Shown one piece after another: positions 6,413 to 36,378 of a stretch of DNA of 38,146 nucleotides. The position numbers were made by a program, and so were the translations under genes. Numbering within the stretch: the first letter of the stretch is position 1; each line of letters opens with the position of its first letter. The notes beneath the pieces were generated by a model. It saw only the letters and a program-made list of their open reading frames with translations, searched no databases and was not told where the DNA came from. Origin of the DNA: a virus; the IMG/VR virus record IMGVR_UViG_3300029319_006593, positions 1-38,146 of that record; one strand, 5' to 3'.

Positions 6413-6437
6413 TACTTTAACACACTCAAGCTATAAT
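6409..6437 (+). promoter_or_regulatory. Near-consensus sigma-70 promoter of the glycan island
   Basis: TTGATA (6409-6414), 17-bp spacer, TATAAT (6432-6437). The expected start site is about 6444, inside the 5' arm of the following terminator hairpin. The stop codon of the lipoprotein gene lies within the -35 box. Confidence 0.8.
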
Positions 6438-6438
6438 A

Positions 6439-6473
6439 AGAGGACATCCGTTTTGGATGTCCTCTATTTTTTT
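6439..6473 (+). terminator. Rho-independent terminator overlapping the promoter start site
   Basis: An 11-bp perfect stem (AGAGGACATCC, 6439-6449, with 6455-6465), 5-nt loop, then A and seven T. It terminates transcripts arriving from the replication genes. Transcripts starting at about 6444 would lack half of the 5' arm and keep only about 6 bp of stem, so they should read through. Confidence 0.85.
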
Positions 6474-6476
6474 ATC

Positions 6477-7652: not shown

Positions 7653-8397
7653 TGGGTGGTCAAACCCTGGCGGCAGCACCTTACACCACATTGGTCTAAC
7701 TAATCTGCTAAATGCCAACGGGATTGATTGTACTTTTTATGGACCTCACGAGTGGCACATCGGCAAGTGTAAGTCGAGGCATATTAGTGAGTGTAAACTT
7801 ACGGTTCATGATACACTTATCAGTCACTTCATACAGGTGCCAACCAGAAATGTAAAGAAACATATCCTAAGCTGTCACGAGACTAATCTATTTCCTCTGA
7901 AGGACATTCCTACGAGCGGCTACGATGTAATTCAGTATGTAAGTAAGTTTCAAAGAGATTGGCAGGGAGTTCTTGATCGTCCACATGTAATTATTCCTCC
8001 TCGCGTGGAGCAAATTGACTGGATGAGTCCTAAAAATAATACTGCTGGGGTCATAGGAAGTATTGATGAGCACAAGCAGACACACAAAGCCATTGAGATG
8101 GCGTTTAAAGACGGCTTTGATAAGGTTGTTTTATATGGAGAAATCACAGACTTACCTTATTTTGAAAAACACATTCAGCCACTCATGCATCGCATAGAGA
8201 TCCGTAATCATGAGGATGATAAGACTGTCATGTACGGCTCCGTAGAGGCTGTCTACCATGCTTCGAAGCGAGAGACCTATGGACTTGTGGAGGCTGAGTG
8301 TAAGGCCGCAGGAGTGCCTTTTAGGGGCGCAGAAAACAACCCTAAGATTATGACTGATGAGGAGATACTAGAGAGATGGCAAAAAATATTAAATTAG
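7633..8397 (+). CDS. Glycosyltransferase, GT-B type
   Basis: A 254-aa protein beginning KIVSGWSNPGGSTLHH, with a Gly-rich N-terminal loop and a C-terminal signature (HASKRETYGLVEAECKAAG) like the donor-binding E-x7-E region of GT4 enzymes. The predicted start is TTG at 7633, preceded by AGGGAG 8 nt upstream and overlapping the previous gene by 20 nt; no ATG fits the conserved N-terminus. It is shorter than typical GT4 enzymes. Specificity is unknown. Confidence 0.65.
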   Translation: MQVKIVSGWSNPGGSTLHHIGLTNLLNANGIDCTFYGPHEWHIGKCKSRHISECKLTVHDTLISHFIQVPTRNVKKHILSCHETNLFPLKDIPTSGYDVIQYVSKFQRDWQGVLDRPHVIIPPRVEQIDWMSPKNNTAGVIGSIDEHKQTHKAIEMAFKDGFDKVVLYGEITDLPYFEKHIQPLMHRIEIRNHEDDKTVMYGSVEAVYHASKRETYGLVEAECKAAGVPFRGAENNPKIMTDEEILERWQKILN

Positions 8398-8969
8398 AAG
8401 ATACAAGAAATATAATAATCAACTTAGATCGTGATCCCGAGCGGCTAGAACAAAGCAAAAAAGTTCTAGATAATTTACAAATACCTTTTGAACGGTTTAG
8501 CGCGATTGAACACGAGGAGGGGATAGTTGGTTGTGGTTTATCTCATAAAAAACTTTTATCTGAGATAAAACCTAACACCTTGATCTTAGAGGATGATATT
8601 GAGCGCACGAGAGCCGCTACAAACTTTGTTTTTAATATTCCTGAAGAGGCTGATGCCATATATTTAGGAATTTCTAACCATGGATATATCAATAAGCCCA
8701 TGGGTGTTGCTGGCACAGTTCTTGCCGCGCAGTATGACGAGAACTATAAGAGGGTATTTAACATGTGTTCTGGTCATGCTATCCTATACTTGAGTCAGAA
8801 ATATATTGATGCCGCTCATGATGTCACAGCTAAGTGTTTGGAGCAAGGCGCTCCTTTTGATCTTGGTCTCGCTGCACTACATAGGTATTTCACCATCCTA
8901 ACGCCTAACGACCCTTACTTCTATCAAACACCACAAGAAGAGTTTACTAATTTTTCTTTACAAGCATGA
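8376..8969 (+). CDS. Glycosyltransferase family 25 protein
   Basis: A 197-aa protein with three GT25 signatures: IIINLDRDPERLE near residue 13, GCGLSHKKLL near residue 52, and LILEDDIE near residue 69, the last giving the metal/donor-binding acidic pair. GT25 enzymes typically add galactose or similar sugars to lipopolysaccharide or protein glycans. It overlaps both neighbours (22 nt and 4 nt), indicating translational coupling within the island. Confidence 0.75.
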   Translation: MAKNIKLEDTRNIIINLDRDPERLEQSKKVLDNLQIPFERFSAIEHEEGIVGCGLSHKKLLSEIKPNTLILEDDIERTRAATNFVFNIPEEADAIYLGISNHGYINKPMGVAGTVLAAQYDENYKRVFNMCSGHAILYLSQKYIDAAHDVTAKCLEQGAPFDLGLAALHRYFTILTPNDPYFYQTPQEEFTNFSLQA

Positions 8970-9682
8970 TTACCTTTATACCAGGATATTTTGGTTGGCT
9001 AGGAAATCAAATGTTTCAGTACGCTGCAACATTTGCCGCTAGTAAAAGGCTTGGCGTGGGCTGTGCGTTCCCAGAGAACGAGCCCAACTTATTTGATATA
9101 TTTAATTTGTCAGCGTCTAGAAGTAAAGGTTCAACACGATATATTTATCAAGAGCCCACCTTTGAATACTCACTCATTCCTGAGATGGATGAACTCACGC
9201 TCTTTGGGTATTTTCAATCAGAAAAATATTTTGAGGATTTCGCTGACGATTTGAGAAAAGAGTTTACATTCAAAGAGTTAGGAGAATCAGCAAATGAGAA
9301 CGTGGTCTCTGTGCATGTGAGACGGGGAGACTACACAAAGCTACAAGATCATCACCCACTATGCACCGTAGAGTATTACGAAAAAGCAATGGCTATGTTT
9401 AAGGACCATTCTTTTTTGGTGTTCTCAAATGATATTGAATGGTGTAAAGAAAATATTAAAGGTCCAAGAGTCATGTATTCGGAAGAGGAGTCTGCTGCAA
9501 AAGATCTTCAACTAATGGCCTCTTGTGATCATAATATTATTGCAAATAGCTCTTTTAGTTGGTGGGGCGCTTGGTTGAATGACAATCCAAATAAGAAAGT
9601 TATAGCTCCCAAGGAGTGGTTTGGCCCAGCTAAACCAGTAGAGACAAAAGATATTTATTGTAAGGACTGGATTATACTATGA
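8966..9682 (+). CDS. GT11 alpha-1,2-fucosyltransferase-like enzyme
   Basis: A 238-aa protein with the GT11 motifs: GWLGNQMFQYA at residues 10-20, H117-V-R-R-G-D-Y123 (the GDP-fucose-binding HxRRxDY motif), and SSFSWWGAWL near residue 195. Family members transfer L-fucose from GDP-fucose; related enzymes use GDP-colitose. It is somewhat shorter than bacterial WbwK/FutC-type proteins. The donor could be made by the dehydratase and reductase genes at 17643 and 18527. It has ATGA overlaps at both ends. Confidence 0.85.
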   Translation: MITFIPGYFGWLGNQMFQYAATFAASKRLGVGCAFPENEPNLFDIFNLSASRSKGSTRYIYQEPTFEYSLIPEMDELTLFGYFQSEKYFEDFADDLRKEFTFKELGESANENVVSVHVRRGDYTKLQDHHPLCTVEYYEKAMAMFKDHSFLVFSNDIEWCKENIKGPRVMYSEEESAAKDLQLMASCDHNIIANSSFSWWGAWLNDNPNKKVIAPKEWFGPAKPVETKDIYCKDWIIL

Positions 9683-10497
9683 TTGTAAACCTTTTTGATG
9701 AGGCATTTCGTCATCTACCCATCTCTGTTCACGGCAAAAGAAGTGAACTAATCGAATATAGGAGAGATTTGAGAGAGTGGGATGGTGTAACAATATTTAC
9801 AGATAACTATGTGTGTTCCCCCGTACCAGCAAAAGTAAAATCAAAATATAAAATTGGATGGCTACTCGAATCCAGACCATGGATCCCACACATTTACGAT
9901 GCGCTACCACATTTCATAGACCAGTTTGATTTCATCATGACTCACGATGAAGACTTATTGAAACAGTTTCCTGAAAAAACTAAGAAGGTAGTATTTGGTG
10001 GATGCTGGATAGATGAATGTAATTACGCTGTCCATTCAAAAACCAAAAACGTGTCCATGATTTATTCATCTAAAAATACCTTAGATGGACATCAACTAAG
10101 ACACGAGGTGGCGAATAAAGCTCCTTTTGATCTTTTCGGAGTAGGGGCAAACAATCCGATTGATAAAAAAGAAGAGGCACTAGTTGACTACAGATTTTCA
10201 GTTGTCATAGAAAATACAAAGAGAAAAAACTATTTTACAGAGAAGCTAGTGGATTGTTTTGCCACAGGAACAATACCTGTGTATTATGGTTGTGAAAATA
10301 TATCGGACTACTTTGATACGGAGGGCATCATCACCTTTAGTTGCAAGGAGGAGTTTGATAGTCTGCTACCAACTCTAACAAAAGAGTTGTATGACACTAA
10401 ATTAGAGGCCATCCAGACCAACTTCTCAAAATTCAAAGAGTACGCTGTAACTGAGGACTGGCTTTACTATAACATACTAAAGGAATATGAAGCATGA
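9679..10497 (+). CDS. GT10-like (alpha-1,3/1,4) fucosyltransferase
   Basis: A 272-aa protein whose C-terminal half contains the GT10 motif: FSVVIENTK, NYFTEKLVDCF, GTIPVYYG (about residues 173-205; E178, N179 and T187-E188-K189 are the conserved positions). The N-terminal half contains the acceptor region (WLLESRP). Together with the preceding GT11 enzyme this gives two distinct fucosyl/colitosyl transfers. The overlaps with its neighbours are 4 nt each. Confidence 0.75.
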   Translation: MIVNLFDEAFRHLPISVHGKRSELIEYRRDLREWDGVTIFTDNYVCSPVPAKVKSKYKIGWLLESRPWIPHIYDALPHFIDQFDFIMTHDEDLLKQFPEKTKKVVFGGCWIDECNYAVHSKTKNVSMIYSSKNTLDGHQLRHEVANKAPFDLFGVGANNPIDKKEEALVDYRFSVVIENTKRKNYFTEKLVDCFATGTIPVYYGCENISDYFDTEGIITFSCKEEFDSLLPTLTKELYDTKLEAIQTNFSKFKEYAVTEDWLYYNILKEYEA

Positions 10498-11675
10498 CGA
10501 TACATCTAGCAGAAGCAACAATTGACGAGCAAGACATGCTTGCTCTAGCAGACTGGGTAACTGGATTCCCTAGACTTACAAAAGGGAAACTGACGGTAGA
10601 ATTTGAGAACAAGTGGGCAGCCTGGATCGGAACCCAGCACGCAACATTTGTAAACTCAGGATCATCGGCAAATCTACTAATGCTTTCAACACTCATGGAG
10701 GCTGGAGACTTGGAACCTGGGGACGCAGTGATTGTCCCTGCTCTTTCCTGGGCAACTGATCTAGCACCTGTCATGCAGCTAGGACTTGTTCCTCTTCTTT
10801 GTGATTGCAATCTAGAAGACTTCTCAGTTGATCTAGATCACTTTAAGAGCATCATATCTGACGGTGTAGTTAAGAATAAAGACGGTATCAATATTAGGCT
10901 CCGACCCAAGGCTGCAATTTTGGTTTCTGTCTTGGGGTTACTGCCCAAAATGGATAAGGTTGTCAGAATTTGTGACAGAAATAATGTCATTCTTCTAGAG
11001 GATTGTTGTGAGTCTCTGGGTTCTGCTATGCCTGATGGTAGAAAATTAGGAACCTTTGGAGCCATGTCAACCTTTTCCACTTACTTTGGACACCACATTT
11101 CGACAATTGAAGGAGGTATGGTATGCACGAATGATGCTCGTTATGACATGATAATGAAGTCTGTTCGCAGCCATGGTTGGTGTCGGGATTGGGATAAGGA
11201 AGATCAGAAAACTATTTGTGATATCTGGGAGGTCTCAGACTTTGATGCCTTCTATACGTTCTTCCATGCTGGGTATAACCTACGGTCTACAGACTTGCAA
11301 GCCTTTATAGGTCTGCGGCAGCTAGAAAAACTTGATGAGGTCTGTACCAGTAGGTGGAGAAACTTTAACTGGTACAATACTTATCTTCAAGATGAGTATC
11401 AGAGAAACAATGAAGAGTGTTTTACTTCCAACTTTGCATTTCCCATAGTTTCTAAAGATAGAGATAAGATTGCAAAAGCCTTAATAGATGAAGGTATTGA
11501 ATGCAGACCTCTAATTTGTGGATCAATGGGCAAGCAACCTTTTTATGTCAAAAAATATGGTGAGGAGGAACTCCCTAACGCTGAGATTGTTAGGCGATAC
11601 GGAATGTATTTGCCCAATCACCATCTCCTTTCAGAAGATGAGATCAAAAAAGTATGCGAGGTTGTAAATGGATAA
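10494..11675 (+). CDS. ColD-like GDP-4-keto-6-deoxymannose 3-dehydratase
   Basis: A 393-aa member of the DegT/DnrJ/EryC1 PLP family. In aminotransferases of this family the PLP lysine precedes an EGG motif; here the segment reads STYFGHHISTIEGG with H200 at the lysine position. That Lys-to-His change is the mark of 3-dehydratases such as ColD (colitose pathway, about 388 aa) and the E1/RfbH type. Since GDP-mannose 4,6-dehydratase is encoded in the same island, the substrate is most likely GDP-4-keto-6-deoxy-D-mannose, giving a 3,6-dideoxy sugar. The protein lacks the N-terminal extension and cysteine cluster expected of RfbH. Confidence 0.75.
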   Translation: MTIHLAEATIDEQDMLALADWVTGFPRLTKGKLTVEFENKWAAWIGTQHATFVNSGSSANLLMLSTLMEAGDLEPGDAVIVPALSWATDLAPVMQLGLVPLLCDCNLEDFSVDLDHFKSIISDGVVKNKDGINIRLRPKAAILVSVLGLLPKMDKVVRICDRNNVILLEDCCESLGSAMPDGRKLGTFGAMSTFSTYFGHHISTIEGGMVCTNDARYDMIMKSVRSHGWCRDWDKEDQKTICDIWEVSDFDAFYTFFHAGYNLRSTDLQAFIGLRQLEKLDEVCTSRWRNFNWYNTYLQDEYQRNNEECFTSNFAFPIVSKDRDKIAKALIDEGIECRPLICGSMGKQPFYVKKYGEEELPNAEIVRRYGMYLPNHHLLSEDEIKKVCEVVNG

Positions 11676-12513
11676 TATAGCAGGAGTGCCTTGTGAGGAT
11701 GTAAAACCTAACTGGCAGTCGTCGGTGCCTCACCCAGATACGCAGCTTCAGTTAAACGGTAGACAAGGATTTGTTTCGGAATATAGAGACTATGTGTCTG
11801 ACCCTATATTAGAAAAGTTAGTTGAAGGCAAGTCTTTAGCATATGTCTGTCCATCTCCTCATTTAGTAGGAAAGGGTATGGGAAACTATATTGACTCACA
11901 TGATATCGTTGTTAGGGTCAATCAAAATTTTGCTCCAACTGAGGACACTTGGGAGGACTATGGAAAAAGGACAGACATTTTAGTAAATTGCACAAACGTG
12001 CATAAGAGACATGCATTATCTAATAACTTGAACTATGTTAGATCTCTAAAGTATTTTCTTTGTCCTATGGTATCGGTCCATGAAAAGCCAATGGTGGACA
12101 GCTTTCTAGAAGATACTAAAGTTCCTTATCAAAATGTTTGCGATGGTTATCTATTTAAAATGTTTAGAGAGGTTGGAACTACCGTAAACACAGGATTAAC
12201 TGGTCTTTTAACTCTGCTCAACTATCCAATCAAATCCCTGTACGTCACAGGAATGACATTCTTTAATATGAATAAGATGGGTAGAATTTACTATGACAAA
12301 TATCATGATGAAGCTGTTAAGTACGGTAACTTCTCTGACACTGAGAACAAAGCCCCTTCTGTGGCCCAGCTAAGAATGGACATTCATGAACAGCAACCTC
12401 AGATAGATTACTTTAAAAAGGTTGTTGCCATTCACCATCCTAAAACTTTGAAACTCGATGAGTTTCTCACGGAGAATTTTGTAAATGAAAATAGTGTGCA
12501 TGATCCCAGCTAG
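11668..12513 (+). CDS. GT29/sialyltransferase-like glycosyltransferase
   Basis: A 281-aa protein with two stretches resembling sialyltransferase motifs: an L-motif-like region at residues about 56-85 (SLAYVCPSPHL, then IDSHDIVVRVN) and an S-motif-like region at about 171-200 (TTVNTGLTGLL, then LYVTGMTFF). GT29 enzymes use CMP-sialic acid. The next gene encodes a CMP-sugar synthetase, which supports a CMP-activated donor. The exact sugar is not determined. It overlaps the previous gene by 8 nt and the next by 29 nt. Confidence 0.6.
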   Translation: MDNIAGVPCEDVKPNWQSSVPHPDTQLQLNGRQGFVSEYRDYVSDPILEKLVEGKSLAYVCPSPHLVGKGMGNYIDSHDIVVRVNQNFAPTEDTWEDYGKRTDILVNCTNVHKRHALSNNLNYVRSLKYFLCPMVSVHEKPMVDSFLEDTKVPYQNVCDGYLFKMFREVGTTVNTGLTGLLTLLNYPIKSLYVTGMTFFNMNKMGRIYYDKYHDEAVKYGNFSDTENKAPSVAQLRMDIHEQQPQIDYFKKVVAIHHPKTLKLDEFLTENFVNENSVHDPS

Positions 12514-13159
12514 AGCGGGGAGTAAAAGAATCAAGAATAAGAATCTCAGGGACTTGGGGGGCATCCCTATGATGGCCCATGCGATCCGCGCTGCCAAGCA
12601 AGCAGACTGCTTTGACGAGATTTATGTTAACTCTGAATGTGATCTCATAGGTCAGGTCGCTGAAAATGAGGCCGTGCGTTTTTATAAGCGACCTGAGCAC
12701 TTGGCTTCCGATGAAGCAACCAACGATCAATTCATGGAAGACTTCATGAACTTTGTTGATTGTGATTATGTAGTTCAGCTTCTTCCCACATCACCGTTTA
12801 TCACACCAAAAGAGATCCAAGATTTTACCAGCTTAGTAGCTAAAGGTGATCAAGACACTGTGGTTTCTGTGAAGGACGTTCAAATAGAATGCGTGTATGA
12901 TGGTGAGCCCATAAATTTTGATCAAAGAAAGCCTACCCCGCCCTCTCAAGATTTGAAACCAATCCAGGCGTATGCATGTAGCTTGATGGGTTGGAGAAAA
13001 GACAACTTCTTGCAAAATATGATTGATTTAGGTTGCGCCTATCATGGTGGGGAAGGTAATATTCTGTTTGTTCCAATCAAAGGCTTTTCTGAGATTGATA
13101 TTGATAATGAAGAGGACTTTGAATTAGCTGAGAGTGTATGGAGGCATATAAATGGATGA
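12485..13159 (+). CDS. CMP-sialic acid/CMP-acyl-sugar synthetase (NeuA-like)
   Basis: A 224-aa cytidylyltransferase. The signature IPARAGSKRIKNKNL (residues 7-21) is the CTP-binding loop of the NeuA/KdsB family, and LLPTSPF plus SEIDIDNEEDFELAE are further family motifs. It activates a nonulosonic-type acid with CTP. No NeuB or NeuC is encoded in this window, so the acid must come from the host or from genes outside the window. It pairs naturally with the sialyltransferase-like gene that it overlaps. Confidence 0.8.
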   Translation: MKIVCMIPARAGSKRIKNKNLRDLGGIPMMAHAIRAAKQADCFDEIYVNSECDLIGQVAENEAVRFYKRPEHLASDEATNDQFMEDFMNFVDCDYVVQLLPTSPFITPKEIQDFTSLVAKGDQDTVVSVKDVQIECVYDGEPINFDQRKPTPPSQDLKPIQAYACSLMGWRKDNFLQNMIDLGCAYHGGEGNILFVPIKGFSEIDIDNEEDFELAESVWRHING

Positions 13160-13568
13160 AAGAGTAGAAGTAGACGTTCCCTCAATCCTACAAAAGGATG
13201 GCGTAAAGAGCAATTCGTTATTTGAAAGCAATCAAGAGGTGGTTAGCCTAGACCACATTCTAAGCACTAGCCCAGAGCCTAGCTGGAGTTATCGTGTAAT
13301 TGACACGGATAGCAACTCAGCAACTATAATTTGTCAAAATCCAGGCGAGGGAAATCGAGAACATTACCATCCAGATTGGAATGAGTGGTGGTACATTCTT
13401 GATGGTGAATGGGAGTGGTTTGTTGAAGGCAAGACCACTCGTGTCAAAAAGGGAGATTTTGTCCTAATTAAAAAAGGTCTTAGACACAAAATTACCGCCG
13501 TAGGTGACAAACCTGCAATGAGGCTTGCAGTTAGCAGAGCGGATGTAGAACATGTATATGCCGTTTGA
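13152..13568 (+). CDS. Cupin-domain protein
   Basis: A 138-aa single-domain cupin. The metal-binding motif is visible: H71-Y-H73, E78 and, in the second motif, H112 (GLRHKIT), with the glycine turns DGEWEW and KKGDF between. Such proteins in sugar clusters may be isomerases, epimerases or sugar-binding regulators; nothing singles one out. It sits between the CMP-sugar synthetase and the SDR, overlapping both. Confidence 0.65.
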   Translation: MDERVEVDVPSILQKDGVKSNSLFESNQEVVSLDHILSTSPEPSWSYRVIDTDSNSATIICQNPGEGNREHYHPDWNEWWYILDGEWEWFVEGKTTRVKKGDFVLIKKGLRHKITAVGDKPAMRLAVSRADVEHVYAV

Positions 13569-14235
13569 TGGGAAGACCGTGCTTGTGACTGGTGCCAGCC
13601 GAGGCATAGGTCAGCAGATAGCGAAAGACTTCAAAGATCAGGGCGCTGATGTCATAGCCACTGATACAAGATCCCTGGATTTTACAAACCGTGAGTCTGT
13701 AAGTAATTTCCTAAAAAGCATAGAAGATAAAACGATTGACATTTGCGTTAACAACGCTGGGATCAATAAGATCAATCTTGTTGATGAAGTCACTGATTCT
13801 GATTGGGAAAAGATCTTGGACGTAAATCTAACAGGACCATTCAAAATTACTAAGGCTGTCCTGTCGGGCATGATGGATCGCGGTGCAGGTAAGATCGTCA
13901 ATATATCCTCCATCTGGTCACACAGGGCTCCGAGAGGCCGTGTAGCGTACTCTTCGACCAAGTATGGTCTACGAGGGCTGACGTTTGCCGTCGCAGCAGA
14001 GGCAGCCTCTAGGGGCGTCCTGGTAAACTCCGTATCCCCAGGGTTTACCAGGACAGAACTCACGGAGAGAACTTTAGGAGAGCAAGGTATGAGAGATGTA
14101 GAAAAACTTATTCCATTAGGTCGATTAGCAACCCCAGAGGATATCTCTAATGTAGTGATGTTTTTGTGTAGCGATATTAACACTTATATATCTGGCCAAG
14201 ACATTGTTGTTGATGGAGGATTTTTAAATGCTTGA
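13552..14235 (+). CDS. Short-chain dehydrogenase/reductase
   Basis: A 227-aa classical SDR: cofactor loop TGASRGIG at residues 13-20, NNAG near residue 68, catalytic Y133-S-S-T-K137, and the C-terminal SGQDIVVDGG motif. NAD(P)-dependent oxidoreductase; it looks FabG-like, but the context suggests a sugar or cyclitol substrate. It may act with the adjacent cyclase and aminotransferase. The ATG at 13558 is an alternative start two codons later. Confidence 0.8.
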   Translation: MYMPFDGKTVLVTGASRGIGQQIAKDFKDQGADVIATDTRSLDFTNRESVSNFLKSIEDKTIDICVNNAGINKINLVDEVTDSDWEKILDVNLTGPFKITKAVLSGMMDRGAGKIVNISSIWSHRAPRGRVAYSSTKYGLRGLTFAVAAEAASRGVLVNSVSPGFTRTELTERTLGEQGMRDVEKLIPLGRLATPEDISNVVMFLCSDINTYISGQDIVVDGGFLNA

Positions 14236-15250
14236 GATAAAATCACATAGGGGCACTTACTCAGTTGAATTTACGCCTGTTGAAGACGCTGAGATACCAA
14301 AAGGTAGCGTAGCAATTATTGATGAAAAAGTCTATCAAATTTACAAAGATAGATTTCTTGATAAGTTTGAGTCTTTCTTTGTTGTTGAGGCGAAAGAAGA
14401 AAATAAGGACTTAGCGAATTGTATTGAGGTAATGAATAAACTCCTCAGCATGGATCCCCCTGTGAAAAAGAACACTACTCTAGTTGCCATAGGTGGTGGT
14501 ATTACTCAAGACATTACCTCTTTTATAGCTTCGATACTGTACAGAGGTTTGGATTGGTGCTTCATCCCAACCACGTTGCTTGCCCAGGCTGATAGTTGTA
14601 TAGGAAGTAAAACTTCAATCAACCACGCAGGAATAAAAAATGTTGTAGGATCGTTCTATCCCGCTAAAAAAGTCTGGTGTGATGATAGATTTCTAACAAC
14701 ACTGCCAAAAAGTGATATCGACTCTGGCATAGGGGAGATGCTACATTATTTTATGATTGATAATAGTCCAGCGTTACAGTCACCATTTACCATGGAATAC
14801 ATCAAAAGGCTAACGAGGGAAAGTTTAAGAATCAAAAAAGCCATGGTTGAGATTGATGAGTTTGACCAGAAAGAAAGAAGAGTATTTAACTATGGTCACA
14901 CATTTGGGCATGCTTTGGAAGCTTTGACCAACTACAGTATCCCGCATGGCCTTGCAGTGACGCGCGGCATGCACCTAGCTAATTATATCTCTTATAGATT
15001 GGGATATATTGATGAGTATGTTCTTAAACACTTGCAAAAATGTATAGAGTTTAATTTACCAAACTATCTTGTTGAAGATGTAGAGGGTTACGTTAGTAAA
15101 CTTATGAAAGATAAGAAGAATACGGATTCTAATTTAGTTTGTATTCTACCGCGCGATATAGGTAGGTACGAGGTCACTACGATCAGAGACATAGATAATT
15201 TGAAAAGCATAATACAAGACTATTTCGATGAATGTAAGCAGGAGCAATAG
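14228..15250 (+). CDS. Sugar-phosphate cyclase (dehydroquinate synthase-like)
   Basis: A 340-aa member of the AroB superfamily: NAD-binding GGGITQDITSF, PTTLLAQADSCIGSKTSIN, and the metal-binding N221-Y-G-H224-T-F-G-H228. Family members cyclise 7-carbon sugar phosphates with NAD and zinc or cobalt. The usual AroB loop GGKTGVN reads GSKTSIN here, and the gene sits among sugar genes, so a specialised cyclase is more likely than housekeeping AroB. It overlaps the SDR by 8 nt and the aminotransferase by 23 nt. Confidence 0.7.
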   Translation: MLEIKSHRGTYSVEFTPVEDAEIPKGSVAIIDEKVYQIYKDRFLDKFESFFVVEAKEENKDLANCIEVMNKLLSMDPPVKKNTTLVAIGGGITQDITSFIASILYRGLDWCFIPTTLLAQADSCIGSKTSINHAGIKNVVGSFYPAKKVWCDDRFLTTLPKSDIDSGIGEMLHYFMIDNSPALQSPFTMEYIKRLTRESLRIKKAMVEIDEFDQKERRVFNYGHTFGHALEALTNYSIPHGLAVTRGMHLANYISYRLGYIDEYVLKHLQKCIEFNLPNYLVEDVEGYVSKLMKDKKNTDSNLVCILPRDIGRYEVTTIRDIDNLKSIIQDYFDECKQEQ

Positions 15251-16376
15251 ATTTAATCTAGTCATAGATTTTGATAAAAGCAAGAATCTGTCTTTGTATG
15301 ATAAGAATACAAACAGATTCTTCTTAGATTTTGTAGGAATGTTCGCCTCTCTCCCCTTGGGGTATAATCACCCAGCATTTCACACAGAAGAGTTTAAAGA
15401 AGAGATCCTGCGAGTTTCCCACACAAAGATTACTAATTGCTTCATGGGGTCAGATGAAAGTCGCGAGTTTGATAAAGTGTTTTCTAAATTTGCTCCCAAA
15501 GGTTATGATAACATATACTATTGCTGCACAGGCTCTTTAGCTGTAGAGTCAGCTATAAAAGCTGCCCTAGAAACTAACAGTCTCGCAGATCCTAAAGTAA
15601 TAACCTTTGGTAAATCTTTTCATGGACTAAATGGTTGGGCTTCTTTTGCCACATCTAGAGACTATCCTGTTGGTAAGAGATTAGGCTACTCTCCTGATAA
15701 TTTTATAATTGAATGCGACGAAACTTTAGAGGCTCTTGAGTTAGCAGTTAAAAACAATAATATTTGTGCAGTGCTGGTTGAGCCAATCAGAGCGACTCAT
15801 GGGGATGTCTACTTTGATAAAACTTTGCTACAACAAATAGACAAGTTTTGTCATGATAATAATATAATATTTATTGTTGATGAGGTGCAAACAGGTATGG
15901 GTGCTACAGGGACTTGGTGGTATCATGAGCAGTTAGGAATAACTCCTGATATCATAGTCTTTGGAAAGAAAACTCAACTTTCAGGAATTATGGCTAACGA
16001 GCGAGCGTCAGCTATATTTAAACAAAAGGAAAAGAAGCTGGAAGTAACCTGGGATGCCAACCTAATAGACATGATCCGCTGTAAACACATCTTAAAAGCC
16101 TACGAAGATCATATGATTCTTGAAAATGTAAGAGATAGATCTAAACAATTTATGAGTGGAATCAATAATCCCAGGCTCAAGAATGTTAGGTGTGCAGGGC
16201 TATTAATAGGGTTTGACCTAGATTCAGAGCAGGAAAGAGATGAGTTTCAGCAAGAATGTTACAACGATGGACTTCTAATAAATTCTGGTGGAGAAAGATC
16301 AATTAGACTAAGGCCCAGCTTATCTGTGAACTATGATGAAATAGACAGAGCCCTAGACATACTTAACAGTAAATGA
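15228..16376 (+). CDS. Class III PLP aminotransferase, lysine 6-aminotransferase-like
   Basis: A 382-aa fold-type I class III aminotransferase. The segments FIVDEVQTGMGATGTWWYHE and PDIIVFGKKTQ match the class; the Schiff-base lysine is most likely K248. The FGKKTQ context and flanking residues are closest to L-lysine epsilon-aminotransferase as I know it. In this island it could aminate a keto sugar or keto-cyclitol made by the neighbouring cyclase and SDR; that is inference. Confidence 0.7.
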   Translation: MNVSRSNRFNLVIDFDKSKNLSLYDKNTNRFFLDFVGMFASLPLGYNHPAFHTEEFKEEILRVSHTKITNCFMGSDESREFDKVFSKFAPKGYDNIYYCCTGSLAVESAIKAALETNSLADPKVITFGKSFHGLNGWASFATSRDYPVGKRLGYSPDNFIIECDETLEALELAVKNNNICAVLVEPIRATHGDVYFDKTLLQQIDKFCHDNNIIFIVDEVQTGMGATGTWWYHEQLGITPDIIVFGKKTQLSGIMANERASAIFKQKEKKLEVTWDANLIDMIRCKHILKAYEDHMILENVRDRSKQFMSGINNPRLKNVRCAGLLIGFDLDSEQERDEFQQECYNDGLLINSGGERSIRLRPSLSVNYDEIDRALDILNSK

Positions 16377-17080
16377 AGAAGACAGCATACATTATAGGCA
16401 CTGGTCCTAGCTTGAAGAACGTGGACATGTCCTTGCTTAAGGATAAGGATACGATTACATTTAATAGAGCTTACGTCGCTTTTGAAGATTGGGGTTTTGA
16501 GCCCACATATTTCTTGGCAATTGATGGCAATGATTTAAGATCTGTATACAAAGATATTAATCAGTTAGTCACAGACTCCAATATTAAAAAGTTTTATCTG
16601 TTGAATCCCACAGATAATGCCATCCATGAATCTGATTCGTTTCAAGATAACGAAAAGGTAGACAAACTATTCGAGGACTCAGATAAAATACATTTTCTAC
16701 ATGATCATGAGATTGTCCCTAACGCAGGGATCATGGGCCTGTACGTTTTGAAGCAAATGGGATATGAAGAGGTTGCTTTTCTGGGATGTGATGCTCGTTA
16801 TAAAGATGACGAGGAGTCTAATAAGCATATCACCATGAAAGGGCGCGAATACATCTCTCATGCGGATTATGATGTCAATCATTTTACTGATAAATACTTT
16901 GGTAAAGGGATTCATTTTGGAAAACCTAACGAACAAGAAATCATTAATTTATGGAGAAGCGCAAAGCAGGAGATTGACGCCTCAGATGATTTCAATGTAT
17001 ACTCTTGCACAGAAGGATCTAACTTAAACGAATTTTATAAATACATAAAGTTAGAAGATTTTATTAATGGAGAACGATAA
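16373..17080 (+). CDS. DUF115/GT42-like putative glycosyltransferase
   Basis: A 235-aa protein starting with a nucleotide-sugar-like loop (YIIGTGPSLKNVDMSLL) and ITFNRAY, followed by NAGIMGLYVLKQMGYEEVAFLG. This pattern is shared by Campylobacter GT42 sialyltransferases and the DUF115/Maf-like group. A second CMP-sugar-using transferase is possible. It has 4-nt and 1-nt overlaps with its neighbours. TATAAATA occurs near its 3' end at 17037 but is not called as a promoter. Confidence 0.5.
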   Translation: MKKTAYIIGTGPSLKNVDMSLLKDKDTITFNRAYVAFEDWGFEPTYFLAIDGNDLRSVYKDINQLVTDSNIKKFYLLNPTDNAIHESDSFQDNEKVDKLFEDSDKIHFLHDHEIVPNAGIMGLYVLKQMGYEEVAFLGCDARYKDDEESNKHITMKGREYISHADYDVNHFTDKYFGKGIHFGKPNEQEIINLWRSAKQEIDASDDFNVYSCTEGSNLNEFYKYIKLEDFINGER

Positions 17081-17646
17081 TGGAACGTATTGATTTTGAA
17101 AATATCGAAGATAAATTAAACAAAGCATTCGACTCTAAAGAGTATGCCTCTTTGGGTGAAAAACTCAATAAAGCTAAGAGAGTTTTTCTGATAGGTAATG
17201 GAGGTCTACACTTTGTTGCTTGTCATGCTGCAACAGATATGACTAGACTAATCGAGGGTAAATCTGTACAAAGCTTCGATAGCGTAGGGTTCATCACCTC
17301 TAATGCAAATGATCATCCTTACGACAAGCTCTTTATTCGTTGGCTTGAAACTCTATGTCATGGTGAAGACTCTGGGGAGTCTTTAGTCATAGGAATGTCT
17401 TGCTCTGGTAAATCAAAGAATGTTCTTGATTGTCTTGTTTGGGCAAACGAACAAGGCATGGATACGTTCATGATCAGCGGCAAAAGTGCTGGAGTTCTAC
17501 CAGAAATCATCGAAGAGCTTGATCTAGACTGTCAGTATTTTCACACCGTGGAAGTAATGTCTTTGATGCTGTTCTATGATCTAATTCATGTGACTGGAAA
17601 CAGATGCCCATCTATTAACCAAGAGATTAGAAGAAAGTTTAAATGA
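17080..17646 (+). CDS. SIS-domain phosphosugar isomerase (GmhA-like)
   Basis: A 188-aa single SIS domain: VFLIGNGGLHFVACHAATD and the phosphate-binding Ser-rich loop IGMSCSGKSKNVLD. Length and layout fit sedoheptulose-7-phosphate isomerases (GmhA, DiaA group). Since AroB-like cyclases can use sedoheptulose 7-phosphate, a shared seven-carbon sugar route is possible. No GmhB phosphatase or heptose kinase is visible. The start is a TAATG junction with the previous gene. Confidence 0.7.
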   Translation: MERIDFENIEDKLNKAFDSKEYASLGEKLNKAKRVFLIGNGGLHFVACHAATDMTRLIEGKSVQSFDSVGFITSNANDHPYDKLFIRWLETLCHGEDSGESLVIGMSCSGKSKNVLDCLVWANEQGMDTFMISGKSAGVLPEIIEELDLDCQYFHTVEVMSLMLFYDLIHVTGNRCPSINQEIRRKFK

Positions 17647-18530
17647 AAGTTGTAGTAACTGGTGGCACTGGTTTTGTGGGTACAAGACTACAAAGGGTTA
17701 AACCTGATTGGATTTACGTCGGATCAAACGATGTCAACCTGTTTAACAAAAACCAAACATACAAGTACATCAGTAGACAAAAGCCTGACGCAGTTGTTCA
17801 TCTAGCTGCTCTCGTTGGAGGTATCAAAGACAATGCTAATCATCCTGCTGAGTTTTTTGAACACAATGCAGTGATGAACATGAACATTGTTGATGCTTGT
17901 AGGAGGGCAGGGGTGCCTAGACTCTTGGCAGCTTTGAGCACCTGTGCCTTTCCTAATGAAGTTTCTTCTTACCCTTTTGATGAATCAAACTTCTTGGATG
18001 GCCCTCCTGCTGAAACCAATATGGCATATGGATTCACCAAGAGAATGCTGTGGGTGCATATCAACTCTCTAAGAAAACAATACGGCTTAAATTACTCTTG
18101 CTTCTCACCCTCAAATCTCTATGGGCCAGAAGATAATTTTGATCTAGAGACATCCCACTTTGTAGCTGCGGCAATTCGTAAAATTCATGAGTCGGATGGT
18201 GATGTAGAGTTTTGGGGAACAGGGAAGCCTTTGAGGCAGCAGCTATTCGTTGATGATCTGTGTAGAGCCATTCCACTCCTGTTAGAGCGTCATCACGATT
18301 CCGACCCAGTGATCGTGGCTCCTCAAGAAAATCTAAGCATAGAGTCCATGGTAAATACCATATCCTCTATAATAGGCAAGCAGGGTAATATTACCTTCAA
18401 TGGCAAGCTTGATGGACAGTATAGAAAGGATGGAAGCAATGCCAAGTTCCTTGGGCTGTGCCCAGATTTTGAATTTACGCCATTTGAGCAGGGAATAGCC
18501 GAGACTTACTCTTGGTACAAAGAACTATGA
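17643..18530 (+). CDS. fcl: GDP-L-fucose synthase-like epimerase/reductase
   Basis: A 295-aa extended SDR. It has TGGTGFVG (residues 6-13), AALVGGIKDN, LSTCAFPNE, catalytic Y129-x3-K133, LYGPEDNFD and the C-terminal FTPFEQGIAETYSWY, all characteristic of Fcl (WcaG/FX). It converts GDP-4-keto-6-deoxymannose to GDP-L-fucose by 3,5-epimerisation and NADPH reduction. The related ColC, which makes GDP-L-colitose, cannot be excluded given the ColD-like gene at 10494. It overlaps its neighbours by 4 nt on each side. Confidence 0.85.
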   Translation: MKVVVTGGTGFVGTRLQRVKPDWIYVGSNDVNLFNKNQTYKYISRQKPDAVVHLAALVGGIKDNANHPAEFFEHNAVMNMNIVDACRRAGVPRLLAALSTCAFPNEVSSYPFDESNFLDGPPAETNMAYGFTKRMLWVHINSLRKQYGLNYSCFSPSNLYGPEDNFDLETSHFVAAAIRKIHESDGDVEFWGTGKPLRQQLFVDDLCRAIPLLLERHHDSDPVIVAPQENLSIESMVNTISSIIGKQGNITFNGKLDGQYRKDGSNAKFLGLCPDFEFTPFEQGIAETYSWYKEL

Positions 18531-19492
18531 AAGCTTTTATTACAGGAATTAGCGGTCAAGATGGCTCTTATCTTGCCGAGTTTTTACTAGAGAAGGGGTA
18601 TGAAGTTTGGGGTCTTCTACGGAGACACTCTGTCCCTGAAAACCAAACAAGCAGACTGGACGACATTGGTATTGTTGATAACCCTAACATGCACCTAGTG
18701 TATGGTGATCTTTGTGATATGCCATCCTTGATTCATATCCTCAGAGAGGTGCAGCCTAATGAAATTTATAACCTAGCTGCACAGTCGCATGTTCGTGTCA
18801 GCTATGATCAACCTGCATTCACCACGATGACAGACGCTAATGGTGTTCTAAATCTTTTGGAGGCGATGCGTACAGTTTGTCCAAACGCTAGGATGTACCA
18901 AGCTGGTTCATCAGAGATGTTTGGTAATGAGTTCGACGATGACGGCTACCGCAGAGAAACTACGCTCATGCGTCCAGTGAGTCCTTACGCTTGTGCAAAG
19001 CTCTATGCATACAACCTGTGTCGTGTATATCGTTCTAGCTATAACTTGTTTGTCGCCAATGGTATTTTGTTCAATCATGAATCACCACGCCGTGGTCTAA
19101 ACTTTGTAACAAATAAGATTGTAGACGGCGCAGTTAAGATTGCTCGTAAAAAGTCGGACACCTTAGCACTGGGTAATCTTGACGCAACAAGAGACTGGGG
19201 ACACGCCAAGGATTATGTGAAAGCTATGTGGATGATGCTGCAACATCATACACCAGACGACTTTGTTTGTGCTATGGGGGAGTCTCACTCTGTTCGTGAT
19301 CTATGTGAGATGGTGTTTGGTAAACTCGGTCTGAACTATGAAAATTATGTTAAGATTGATCCACGATACTATAGACCAACAGAGCTTGATGACTTGAAAG
19401 GTGATTGCTCTAAACTCAAAAATACTCTAGGTTGGGAGCCCGAATACACTTTTGAGAGTATGGTGGATGAAATGATCAAGGCGAGGCTATGA
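18527..19492 (+). CDS. gmd: GDP-mannose 4,6-dehydratase
   Basis: A 321-aa extended SDR with ITGISGQDGSYLAEFLL at the N-terminus, the GMD-typical LRRHS loop, NLAAQSHV, GSSEMFG and catalytic Y154-x3-K158 (SPYACAK). It makes GDP-4-keto-6-deoxy-D-mannose, the branch point for fucose and, through the ColD-like enzyme, a 3,6-dideoxy sugar. The ATG at 18527 (ATGA overlap with fcl) is preferred over an in-frame ATG 15 nt upstream. It is the last gene of the island. Confidence 0.9.
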   Translation: MKAFITGISGQDGSYLAEFLLEKGYEVWGLLRRHSVPENQTSRLDDIGIVDNPNMHLVYGDLCDMPSLIHILREVQPNEIYNLAAQSHVRVSYDQPAFTTMTDANGVLNLLEAMRTVCPNARMYQAGSSEMFGNEFDDDGYRRETTLMRPVSPYACAKLYAYNLCRVYRSSYNLFVANGILFNHESPRRGLNFVTNKIVDGAVKIARKKSDTLALGNLDATRDWGHAKDYVKAMWMMLQHHTPDDFVCAMGESHSVRDLCEMVFGKLGLNYENYVKIDPRYYRPTELDDLKGDCSKLKNTLGWEPEYTFESMVDEMIKARL

Positions 19493-23327: not shown

Positions 23328-23643
23328 AAATTCTTTACTCGGACCCACTAGAGTCCAGAGGATTGCTAAAAAGCTGATTGATGAGGCTGGTGAGGATCGC
23401 AGACTTGCACTCGAAGCCCATCGGTTTTTCAGAAACATGGTTGATGAAAACCCACAAGACTCTACAGCAAAGGGTCTGATGGTTGATTCCTTGAAGGTTG
23501 CCCAGGCATCCAAAAACAATGTAATCAAAATTCTAAACCTTGTAGTGAAAATGGAGGAGGTCAAAGATGAGAACATCACCAAGGCTTCCAAAGGTTCCGA
23601 AAACTCTGTATTCAGCGAATTAGACAATCTATTAAATGAGTGA
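23305..23643 (+). CDS. Hypothetical helical protein
   Basis: A 112-aa, mostly helical, charged protein (RIAKKLIDEAGEDRRLALEA). No family recognised. Its stop overlaps the start of the Clp-like ATPase gene by 8 nt, so the two may work together, for example as an adaptor; that is inference from position only. Confidence 0.6.
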   Translation: MPSNYIPKNSLLGPTRVQRIAKKLIDEAGEDRRLALEAHRFFRNMVDENPQDSTAKGLMVDSLKVAQASKNNVIKILNLVVKMEEVKDENITKASKGSENSVFSELDNLLNE

Positions 23644-24982
23644 GCGCAAAACATATCGTGTCGTATGCCCAGACCTGAACGCAGTTCTATATGTCAAGGG
23701 TTATTCCATGGAGGAGGAGCACAAGCTTTACACCTCCCTTCGTACCAAGATTCAGGACTCAGAGAAACCCATCAAGATCGACGAGTACAAAAATTTTGTC
23801 GTTCGTAAGTTCTTAGTCGATGTTGACGGTTTCTTTGACCTGTTTCCTGACGATGATATTGAGGAGATGCTTGATGGCATCAACTCGGCTTACGAAGCGA
23901 TTATCAATCTGTATCCGCCTTTCTCTCTGGACTTCATTTGTACCGACCTGAACAGCGAAGCGTTCTTCTCTGGTATCGAGAAGCGTATGCTGAACAAGCT
24001 CAAGGAGCAGATTACGGGCAAGACTCCACAGGCGCAGCCTGAAGGCTCTGTGGCGCTCTCCTCACTTGAGGAGCTTGAGCTACTGGAAGAATACTTCGGG
24101 GACAATATTGTGGGACAGAGAGATGCCATACGCGCTCTCATGCGCTCGCTCAAGCTCATGGCATCTGGTCTCGCTAACCACTCCTCGTTCCTTTTCGTAG
24201 GACCAACTGGTGTGGGCAAGACACAGATTGCCAAGCTACTGGGTGAGAAGTTCAGTGGTAATTTCTACAAGGTGAACTGCGCTGAGTATGCTGGAGGACA
24301 TGAGTATGCCAAACTAATTGGCTCTCCTCCTGGTTATGTGGGGCACAGTGAGAAATCTCTTCTGGGTGAGAAAGCAGAGCAATCTAACTCGTGGGTCTTC
24401 TTGTTCGATGAGATCGAAAAGGCACACCACAAGCTGTATGATTTCCTGTTGAGCCTACTAGATGATGGTACTTGCACAGATAACATGGGGCAGGTTCTGG
24501 ATTTCACTCAATCAATCTTTATCTTCACATCTAACCAAGGTATGTCTGAAGTTAAGCGTGAGTCTGTAGGCTTCGATCGCAACACTAATCGTGAGGTCGA
24601 GGACTCTGCCACGGAAGAGACAGTTCGTAAGTCTATCAAGCGTCACTTCAGTCCTGAATTTCTGAACCGTATCGACGAGGTTGTGGTATTTAAATCACTC
24701 ACCAAGAAAGATATTAGAGAGATTGCAGAGATTCAACTGGAAGATCTACCCATCAAAGCTACGAAGCCCCTGATTGATTTTGTTGCAGAGAATGGATACT
24801 CGCAGGAATACGGAGCACGGAACATCTCAAGGTTCATCAAGAACAATGTTTCCGATAAGATAGCTGATGCCATCCTAAACCGACTTGTGCCCAAGAAGGA
24901 GGAGGACTATTATACTCCCCGAATCGTGGACAATCAGGTGAAGATCGTGGACACCAAAAAATTTAATGTGTCTTCGATGTGA
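23636..24982 (+). CDS. Clp/HSP100-like AAA+ ATPase with phage-specific N-terminus
   Basis: A 448-aa protein. Residues about 150-440 form one HSP100 D2-type AAA+ module: Walker A GPTGVGKT with K195, pore loop GSPPGYVG, Walker B LFDEIEKAH with D258/E259, sensor region TSNQG, arginine finger in FLNRID, and sensor-2 GARNISRFI. Residues 1-130 (TYRVVCPDLNAVLYVKGY...) are unlike Clp N-domains. It should unfold proteins as a hexameric ring. No ClpP partner and no clear ClpP-binding IGF/IGL loop is seen, so disassembly rather than proteolysis is possible. Confidence 0.75.
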   Translation: MSERKTYRVVCPDLNAVLYVKGYSMEEEHKLYTSLRTKIQDSEKPIKIDEYKNFVVRKFLVDVDGFFDLFPDDDIEEMLDGINSAYEAIINLYPPFSLDFICTDLNSEAFFSGIEKRMLNKLKEQITGKTPQAQPEGSVALSSLEELELLEEYFGDNIVGQRDAIRALMRSLKLMASGLANHSSFLFVGPTGVGKTQIAKLLGEKFSGNFYKVNCAEYAGGHEYAKLIGSPPGYVGHSEKSLLGEKAEQSNSWVFLFDEIEKAHHKLYDFLLSLLDDGTCTDNMGQVLDFTQSIFIFTSNQGMSEVKRESVGFDRNTNREVEDSATEETVRKSIKRHFSPEFLNRIDEVVVFKSLTKKDIREIAEIQLEDLPIKATKPLIDFVAENGYSQEYGARNISRFIKNNVSDKIADAILNRLVPKKEEDYYTPRIVDNQVKIVDTKKFNVSSM

Positions 24983-25075: not shown

Positions 25076-25151
25076 CCTCCAGTAGCTCATTGGTCAGAGC
25101 AGTGTTCTTATAAAGCATTGGTAGGTGGTTCGATTCCACCCTGGAGGACCA
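25076..25151 (+). tRNA. tRNA-Ile(UAU)
   Basis: Cloverleaf with 7-bp acceptor CCTCCAG/CTGGAGG, D stem GCTC/GAGC, anticodon loop CTTATAA giving anticodon UAU, T stem GGTGG/CCACC with TTCGATT loop, and encoded ACCA. It reads AUA, a codon rare in many bacteria. The anticodon stem contains two G-U pairs. Confidence 0.9.
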
Positions 25152-25382: not shown

Positions 25383-25554
25383 TAAAGTTACCTTCGGGTA
25401 TTTCAAAAACGAAAGCAAAGCTCAAGCCTTTATCGACCATCACAAAAAGTTTCGCATGAAGAAGGACATTGATCCTAAGTTCTTCGTGGTGAAGCGTGAT
25501 CGTAAAAAGGCTGGACAAAAAACCTATGAGGCGTATTGCCTGATTCCCCGATAG
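25357..25554 (+). CDS. Small basic protein ending inside tRNA-Asn
   Basis: A 65-aa Lys/Arg-rich protein (KVTFGYFKNESKAQAFIDHH, then KKFRMKKD). The start has CTGGAGG upstream. Its last codons and TAG stop (25552-25554) lie inside the tRNA-Asn gene, whose first base is 25545. Transcript processing to release the tRNA would remove its stop codon. Function unknown. Confidence 0.6.
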   Translation: MAIRNRKSDKVTFGYFKNESKAQAFIDHHKKFRMKKDIDPKFFVVKRDRKKAGQKTYEAYCLIPR

Positions 25555-25620
25555 CTCAATCGGTAGAGCATTTGGCTGTTAACCAAAGGGTTGTAGGTTC
25601 AAGTCCTACTCGGGGAGCCA
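25545..25620 (+). tRNA. tRNA-Asn(GUU)
   Basis: Acceptor TCCCCGA/TCGGGGA, D stem GCTC/GAGC, anticodon loop CTGTTAA giving GUU, T stem GTAGG/CCTAC with TTCAAGT loop, encoded GCCA end. Its 5' ten bases are shared with the coding end of the preceding gene. Confidence 0.95.
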
Positions 25621-25621
25621 T

Positions 25622-25698
25622 GGGGATATAGCCCAATCGGCAGAGGCAACAGACTTAAAATCTGTCAAGTGCGGGTTCGAATCCCGCTATCCCTACCA
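25622..25698 (+). tRNA. tRNA-Leu(UAA) with a short variable loop
   Basis: Acceptor GGGGATA/TATCCCT, anticodon stem ACAGA/TCTGT with loop CTTAAAA giving anticodon UAA, T stem GCGGG/CCCGC with TTCGAAT loop, encoded ACCA. Bacterial leucine tRNAs have a long variable arm, but here it is only about 5 nt (CAAGT), so charging specificity is uncertain. Confidence 0.85.
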
Positions 25699-25709
25699 AA
25701 CACTGCATC

Positions 25710-26237
<528 letters not shown>

Positions 26238-26242
26238 TACAT

Positions 26243-26354
26243 GGGGATGAACTGGTTTCGACAAGTTAAGCAGCGCAAGCAGGACGATTAAAGCCCACTG
26301 TTTAAAGTCCCACGCTTCTCTTGGACGCGAGTTCGATTCTCGCCATCTCCACCA
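26243..26354 (+). ncRNA. 112-nt minimal tmRNA-like RNA
   Basis: Starts GGGGATGAACTGGTTTCGAC, the tmRNA 5' signature, and ends with T arm GCGAG-TTCGATT-CTCGC, acceptor strand CATCTCC and ACCA. The acceptor pairs 7 bp and includes G3-U70, the alanine identity pair, with A73. A P2-like helix joins CAAG (26262-26265) to CTTG (26320-26323) and AAGC (26268-26271) to GCTT (26314-26317). Inside is one hairpin, GGAC...GTCC. Standard tmRNAs are 230-400 nt with a tag and pseudoknots; these are absent. A 10-codon frame (26273-26305) ends in TAA but encodes no LAA-type tag. Confidence 0.7.
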
Positions 26355-26557: not shown

Positions 26558-26853
26558 AAAAGGAATGTGATGGAACTTTTGAAAGTATTGGCTGGAATGT
26601 GGGGGAACTCGTCCAGCAAAAACAACGAGCGTATGGAGATTCCTTCGGAAGAAGTGGGGAGTGCCTTCGTCAAATGTTTCCCGATGGTATACGCCCAGAG
26701 CAATATGATGACCTTCTCACCATCGCACGGATTCTAGATAAACTATTTAGAATCGCTAACAACAAGGATGCTTTCAATGAGAATCCTTACCAAGATATTG
26801 TAGGGTATGGCCTACTAGGAATGAAACGACATGCTGAACACAACGATTCCTGA
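26554..26853 (+). CDS. DUF1599/MazG-like nucleotide-associated protein
   Basis: A 99-aa protein whose C-terminal part (YDDLLTIARILDKLFRIAN, then YQDIVGYGLLGM) resembles the DUF1599 group, which is linked to nucleotide metabolism and has a MazG-like helical layout with conserved Asp/Glu. The exact reaction is unknown. It fits the nucleotide-handling genes elsewhere in the window. Confidence 0.5.
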   Translation: MKKECDGTFESIGWNVGELVQQKQRAYGDSFGRSGECLRQMFPDGIRPEQYDDLLTIARILDKLFRIANNKDAFNENPYQDIVGYGLLGMKRHAEHNDS

Positions 26854-27415
26854 ATTTTATTGTCTAGCTCGTAAAGAGTTTTTTTACAACCAAGAGAAAG
26901 GGCACGGTGAATTTGTGCCTGTCATGCTTTTCGGTGCAAGATCTCGTGGGGGCAGAGTGCTAGAGTTTCATGCTGTAACAGATGCGGGAATGCAATTCCT
27001 GGGACTGCCTCCACATGCGATCTGCCACAAGCCTTGCGAAAAACCTCTGATCCAAGACTCTCAACTGTGGGACTGTTTCGGTGATGAGGTTACCGTGGAG
27101 AAGTTTGATTATCTTGAGGGAATGCGCTGCAAGTACAAACGAGAAAGTGATGGCAAGTGGCTTTCTGGTAGATACATGATGACATTCGACTGGACAGATA
27201 ATGCATTCTCTGATGATCCCTCACAGCGCAAGAATGGTCATCTCATTGAGCTAGACTCTGGCAACTACACAGTTCAACCAAACAACAGGACTCTCTGGTT
27301 CGATCCTTCTTGGACCACGAGTGAGCCCGACCTAGACTGGAAAGTAAACGAGCATGTGTGGTCATCAGAAAACCAACATGCTCGTCACAAGGAAAACAAA
27401 TTCTTCTACGATTAG
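26831..27415 (+). CDS. Hypothetical protein
   Basis: A 194-aa protein with no recognised domain; mixed alpha/beta appearance, Trp-rich C-terminus (TLWFDPSWTT, DLDWKVNEHVW). It overlaps the preceding gene by 23 nt and is convergent with the next minus-strand gene, sharing 4 bases at the stop codons. Confidence 0.65.
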   Translation: MLNTTIPEFYCLARKEFFYNQEKGHGEFVPVMLFGARSRGGRVLEFHAVTDAGMQFLGLPPHAICHKPCEKPLIQDSQLWDCFGDEVTVEKFDYLEGMRCKYKRESDGKWLSGRYMMTFDWTDNAFSDDPSQRKNGHLIELDSGNYTVQPNNRTLWFDPSWTTSEPDLDWKVNEHVWSSENQHARHKENKFFYD

Positions 27416-36140: not shown

Positions 36141-36378
36141 GCCGTGGCCCCGCCCGCCAAAAATTTTTTCAAGAGAAAAGGGTGGGATCTGGCCTAGCCC
36201 CAGTCCCGTTTTCATAATATGTCACTGCCTCGTTCTAGGCTATCGTTTGCAACCGATAGGGTTACGGGGTGAGCGCGTCCGCTCTCGTGTCCCCCAGAGG
36301 GAGAGGCTTTCGCCTTCAATCCCAAGGGGCGCTCAGGGCCTAGTCACCTGTTTAGCCTCGCCCTGTCGAGGATGGGTA
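36141..36378. other. Non-coding structured stretch
   Basis: No convincing gene in 238 nt. Several stems are visible, for example CTATCG/CGATAG (36240-36245/36254-36259) and GAGAGGC...GCCTTC-like pairs around 36301-36316. This is the longest non-coding gap of the minus-strand block and might encode a small RNA; no promoter fitting it was found. Confidence 0.4.

Follow-up and report, generated by a model that had tools for sequence, protein, structure and literature searches.

What does a phage do with a gene for an RNA that has the tRNA-like domain (TLD) of tmRNA and no room for a tag? Bacteria rescue stalled ribosomes mainly by trans-translation. Alanyl-tRNA synthetase (AlaRS) recognises a G3.U70 pair, EF-Tu and SmpB bind the TLD of tmRNA, and the complex enters stalled ribosomes; to our knowledge, direct phage counter-measures against this process are hardly known beyond one mycobacteriophage RNA. 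The question arises at positions 26243-26354 (+) of the window, by which we mean the whole 38,146-nt stretch of IMG/VR virus record IMGVR_UViG_3300029319_006593. This 38-kb record encodes a ribonucleotide reductase, a gp41-like helicase, a gp32-like SSB and a UvsX-like recombinase, and relatives of its neighbour genes are found in cyanophages, so that the window is best assigned to a T4-like marine phage. A sequence-only reading had proposed a 112-nt tmRNA-like RNA without the tag/pseudoknot domain, and Infernal places one at exactly these coordinates: the Rfam tmRNA model (RF00023) matches with 71.0 bits (E = 7.5e-26, the same call on repetition), against a gathering cut-off of 47 bits for this curated covariance model. 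Model positions 1-374 are spanned end to end, with about 260 interior nucleotides missing. The other Rfam tmRNA families have no match within the window, itself a fragment, and ARAGORN makes neither a tmRNA nor a tRNA call at the locus. The folding energy is not unusual (z = -1.42), and the case for the RNA thus stands on the covariance-model match and on conservation.

The RNA, which lies on the plus strand with all its parts, begins with the acceptor strand GGGGAUG (26243-26249), contributing G3 of the G3.U70 pair. It continues with a D-like segment, AACUGGUUUCGAC (26250-26262), which has no D stem and matches the RF00023 consensus in the tmRNA signature; by sequence and RF00023 alignment the D segment is GGUUUCGAC, as in tmRNA. 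A long P2 helix replaces the anticodon stem, according to the fold, to the pairs left unchanged in a relative and to covariation in the wider class. Its two strands (26262-26271 and 26314-26323) pair in two stretches of 4 bp, separated by a UU/CU internal loop, and close a junction with two hairpins, a small one, GC-GCAA-GC (26273-26280), found in the folds and identical in the relative, and a larger one closed by GGAC/GUCC, with AAAGCCC in its loop (26282-26310). The earlier reading had rightly seen a P2-like helix and was slightly mistaken in letting only one hairpin join the parts. A tmRNA-like GGAC linker (26323-26326), placed by the RF00023 alignment, leads from P2 to the T arm GCGAG-UUCGAUU-CUCGC (26327-26343), on which alignment and fold agree, and the 3' end (26344-26354) comprises the acceptor strand CAUCUCC with U70, then A73 and an encoded CCA. 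The acceptor with G3.U70, A73, D signature, T arm and CCA that had been noticed by eye are therefore all present in both the sequence and the alignment; with the GGAC linker and the 5 bp of the T arm they make up the TLD of a tmRNA.

The message domain is another matter. None of the internal reading frames inspected holds a tag-like peptide, a tag frame after a resume codon is absent, only about 42 nt lying between the P2 strands, and with some 260 nt gone there is too little sequence for pseudoknots PK1-PK4, hairpins alone being predicted. A two-piece or permuted tmRNA with its partner in the window was rejected, as both acceptor strands lie in one RNA and the window contains no second tmRNA family match; a tRNA-Ala was rejected as well, the anticodon arm and D stem being missing from the predicted fold and ARAGORN calling no tRNA. 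What is left is a phage-encoded TLD without a message domain, a kind represented by mycobacteriophage DS6A, whose TLD-only tmRNA (tmRNA Website tmID 11587; Mao et al. 2009) is cited in PMC4131195 and PMC11915505 and likewise has no tag frame. It is described as little more than a TLD, of the class of about 65 bp, whereas the window RNA, compared with it by description, measures 112 nt, has a branched insert after P2 and, unlike DS6A's as described, belongs to a group of tRNA genes in a T4-like marine phage. PMC11915505 counts 79 phage sequences in the 2025 tmRNA database, DS6A being the one marked out as CDS-less. The kind is thus already known, and the window RNA is a further member with a branched insert.

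Related forms differ in instructive ways. The mitochondrial tmRNA of jakobids and oomycetes (RF02544) also keeps the TLD and lacks a tag reading frame, but is organellar, usually has a permuted gene, works with a nuclear-encoded SmpB and is thought to help rescue. The CDS-less tmRNA of Mallomonadaceae plastids shares the TLD-like form of about 65 bp and the lack of a tag, and differs in its plastid location and in having no known activity (PMC11915505). Full-length phage tmRNAs (Bxz1, Wildcat, Streptomyces phages), along with the two-piece ssrA genes of Melnitz and Stenotrophomonas phages, have the same TLD and differ by their message domain and tag. BLAST matches of the window RNA in Stenotrophomonas, Acinetobacter, Achromobacter and Tunturiibacter phages were set aside as permuted forms, the Stenotrophomonas matches checked being permuted two-piece genes, and a Lactococcus match was set aside as a full-length tmRNA.

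The 112-nt RNA is the last member of a cluster in which it follows four tRNAs, all called by ARAGORN and Rfam: tRNA-Ile (25076-25151), tRNA-Asn (25545-25620), tRNA-Leu (25622-25698) and, 5 nt upstream of the RNA on the same strand, tRNA-Arg(UCU) (26161-26237). Promoter- and terminator-like sites around it are not above chance, so that co-transcription with the neighbouring tRNAs is something we infer. A DUF4385-like gene (25710-26183) overlaps the tRNA-Arg by 23 nt, as it does in two further contigs, L080 and L081. It is missing between the same two tRNAs in the relative L363, as one would expect of a gene inserted into the cluster.

Whether the RNA gene is maintained can be judged from that relative, which encodes a protein 99% identical to the one at 26831-27415 of the window. 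At L363:659-770 lies a 112-nt homologue (67.4 bits), identical at 106 of 112 positions, and all six substitutions avoid the base pairs of the predicted fold (hypergeometric P = 0.0066), a comparison of two sequences, few as they are, beside which class-level evidence weighs more. The two RNAs share one predicted fold, with energies of -31.5 and -32.0, and only 0.5% of random six-substitution mutants keep the structure energy equally well, which leaves the notion of a truncated copy with random substitutions unsupported. Identity is 94.6% for the RNA and 94.8% for the adjacent tRNA-Arg; two long flanking matches stand at 78% and 88%, and the DNA directly downstream is unrelated. The earlier argument against simple decay is strengthened by this conserved copy, with its pairing intact, its changes confined to unpaired positions and its conservation like that of a tRNA. 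The RNA is missing from four other relatives (L364-L367) and from L080 and L081; on the pattern of substitutions it is an accessory gene, evidently under selection where present. One of these relatives carries a group I intron-like match (L365:1110-1332; 33.9 bits, under the Rfam cut-off of 50).

Viral contigs from IMG/VR were scanned with patterns in which the tmRNA D segment, the GGAC linker and the T loop lie close together, and a structural filter required a 7-bp acceptor and a 5-bp T stem, P2 not being required. A strict first pattern gave no matches, because the D segment of L363 differs; looser patterns succeeded. At least 118 distinct RNAs pass the structural filter, 86 of them left after removal of near-duplicates, and the pattern and structure searches yield at least 123 distinct tag-less tmRNAs of about 66-140 nt in diverse phages, a large class of which most members lack annotation. 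Among the matches listed, most members have 75-82 nt and no CCA, a smaller group of 104-137 nt includes the window RNA, and CCA is encoded in 42 of 118. For the 86 non-redundant members among these matches, 5.31 of the first six P2 positions pair, against 2.61 +/- 0.13 when the 3' strands are dealt out at random, a test that kinship can inflate and in which the gap amounts to about 20 standard deviations. A script tallied covariation over structural positions (n = 86), since MAFFT, in aligning the short class, had put the 5' acceptor strand in the wrong place. The P2 helix covaries strongly across unrelated phages. G3.U70 and A73, which form the identity set for AlaRS, occur in all 123 members among the matches listed, neither having been required by the search, and G.U pairs take up 9 of 738 positions elsewhere in the acceptor of the same members.

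Of the 47 class contigs searched in full, 43 contain a match that exceeds the Rfam cut-off. Seven of 16 members of 104-137 nt, against 0.5 in shuffles, share a hairpin that combines an A-rich loop with GCCY and resembles the larger hairpin of the window RNA. A hidden tag in these longer forms was considered and rejected: short frames run from GCAAA in some, and neither their stops nor their C-termini are conserved. In 257 Gb of bacterial and archaeal genomes a somewhat stricter pattern found 15 matches, at least four with the tag-less fold, from which the class seems mainly viral. It is probably under-counted as well, since ARAGORN missed the window RNA and the other members checked. A named carrier is Streptomyces phage LuckySocke, which has an unannotated 78-nt member inside a tRNA cluster. 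The permuted tmRNA that ARAGORN does call at L043:8516-9249 overlaps a 74-nt tag-less RNA and is probably an artefact of a forced tag. A match to an inner-motif pattern (L368) was discarded, being a terminator-like hairpin that fits the pattern by chance. The breadth of the class and its invariant alanine identity appear to be unreported in the open-access literature that we searched.

The genomic surroundings bear on where such genes come from and on what they work with. An SmpB gene is present in none of 50 contigs, window included, which makes host SmpB the probable partner, though a gene for SmpB or for a partner RNA with the message may lie in the phage outside this 38-kb fragment. Location in a tRNA cluster does not hold as a general rule: 18 of 82 members lie within 1 kb of a tRNA, against 7.4 expected, and most stand alone. 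Many short members adjoin genes for major capsid protein, portal or terminase on the same strand; protease genes are also among the neighbours of the short class, in place of an integrase. This matters for the suggestion that the RNA is an attP for integration, made of part of a host ssrA gene. An attP carries the 3' piece of its target and not a complete TLD with its own 5' strand; the window encodes no tyrosine integrase, and an integrase occurs in four of 47 class contigs, adjacent to the tag-less RNA in none. Even though tmRNA genes are described as common integration sites in PMC11915505, we give this explanation hardly any credence.

Two T4-like relatives from marine contigs carry full-length tmRNAs (L099:6632-7063 and L102:2696-3135; 97-99 bits) about 1 kb downstream of a DUF4385 gene. 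Presence near the same gene makes an internal deletion plausible as origin, and these positions suggest, without showing it, that the tag-less RNA may have arisen through loss of its message domain. They also lend something, together with the patchy presence of the RNA, to the view that it is a decayed or truncated tmRNA gene without function. Such a remnant would hardly have changed in structure-neutral fashion only, as in L363, nor does decay fit with P2 covariation, with an invariant alanine identity and with recurrence in unrelated phages, and we consider it very improbable. The two full-length genes receive no ARAGORN call and may encode a tag ending in ...QQSYAYA. One record (G017, the record of L132) has both a 392-nt tmRNA-like gene (77588-77979) and an 82-nt tag-less one (46486-46567), and another contig (G026) has two tag-less tmRNAs.

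The comparisons establish, at the level of sequence, that the TLD is intact, has the complete set of alanine identity elements as well as P2 and CCA, includes no tag frame and is kept under selection. As to function, we favour, with confidence somewhat better than even, an alanine-chargeable decoy that would vie for SmpB and stalled ribosomes and so block trans-translation. The RNA would be transcribed with the neighbouring tRNAs. Once trimmed, it would receive alanine from host AlaRS and associate with the EF-Tu and SmpB of the host, and as Ala-RNA.SmpB it would be a rival of host tmRNA both for SmpB and for stalled ribosomes. Since there is no resume codon or tag, trans-translation could not be completed, and host tagging and degradation of unfinished proteins would be damped during infection. 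The decoy idea, already put forward by the sequence-only reading, gains backing from published work: PMC4131195 reports strong inhibition of tmRNA in E. coli by a similar molecule, whether or not it can be charged, with titration of SmpB as a possible cause.

Inhibition independent of charging, as in that passage (PMC4131195), is what one would expect if the RNA merely soaked up SmpB, or a host defence protein with an SmpB-like domain (type II and III-A CoCoNuTs bear such domains, predicted to bind tmRNA in PMC11090510), charging being irrelevant. Pure titration would not predict an invariant alanine identity, found in 123 of 123 members among the matches listed, or a CCA encoded by 42 of 118, and we regard it as rather improbable. 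The invariance suggests that charging matters in nature and is kept by selection, that titration of SmpB probably does not explain everything, and that the true function may lie in some later step, once the RNA is charged. This would place its action at the ribosome, whether as a blocking decoy, which we prefer, or as an RNA that rescues without a tag.

As a minimal rescue RNA, Ala-RNA.SmpB would enter stalled ribosomes and take over the nascent chain, after which drop-off, a release factor or peptidyl-tRNA hydrolase would free the ribosome without a tag. The phage would then have its ribosomes recycled, and proteins would be left unmarked for degradation. Rescue needs the alanine identity, which titration does not. 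We know of no step, however, that releases a ribosome from a tag-less peptidyl-TLD, and the full-length tmRNAs of L099 and L102 indicate that the complete function is within reach of a phage that needs it. According to PMC11915505, tag-less tmRNAs of mitochondria occur together with SmpB and presumably assist where an mRNA is incomplete; the similar molecule examined in the passage of PMC4131195 is an inhibitor in E. coli, and minimal rescue seems to us unlikely. The blocking decoy remains our preferred reading. Its extension to the class, by which alanine-chargeable tag-less tmRNAs would be a widespread and mostly unannotated phage device for blocking or rewiring ribosome rescue in the host, gained or shortened on several occasions among unrelated phages and acting charged on the ribosome and not as mere SmpB sponges, we hold tentatively, at a little less than even confidence.

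Should this be true for many unrelated phages, blocking or rerouting ribosome rescue would be a common phage strategy, testable by one short gene; the roughly 120 other phage DNAs with similar RNAs among the matches listed suggest that such interference is common. The sequence data predict that charging through G3.U70 should matter during infection, unlike the published titration idea.

The carrier phage has further features of note. The protein encoded at 23636-24982 (+) joins the C-terminal half of a ClpA-like ATPase (phrog_4871) to an unrelated N-terminal part; the tag-less tmRNA here shares its phage with a protease-unfoldase relative. A long sugar cassette (6306-19492, +) contains glycosyltransferases and aminotransferases, by PHROGs matches, and dehydratase/epimerase-like and cytidylyltransferase-like genes, judged by eye. 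At 36286-36371 (-) lies a Pistol self-cleaving ribozyme (RF02679), with 39.5 bits against a cut-off of 34.5.
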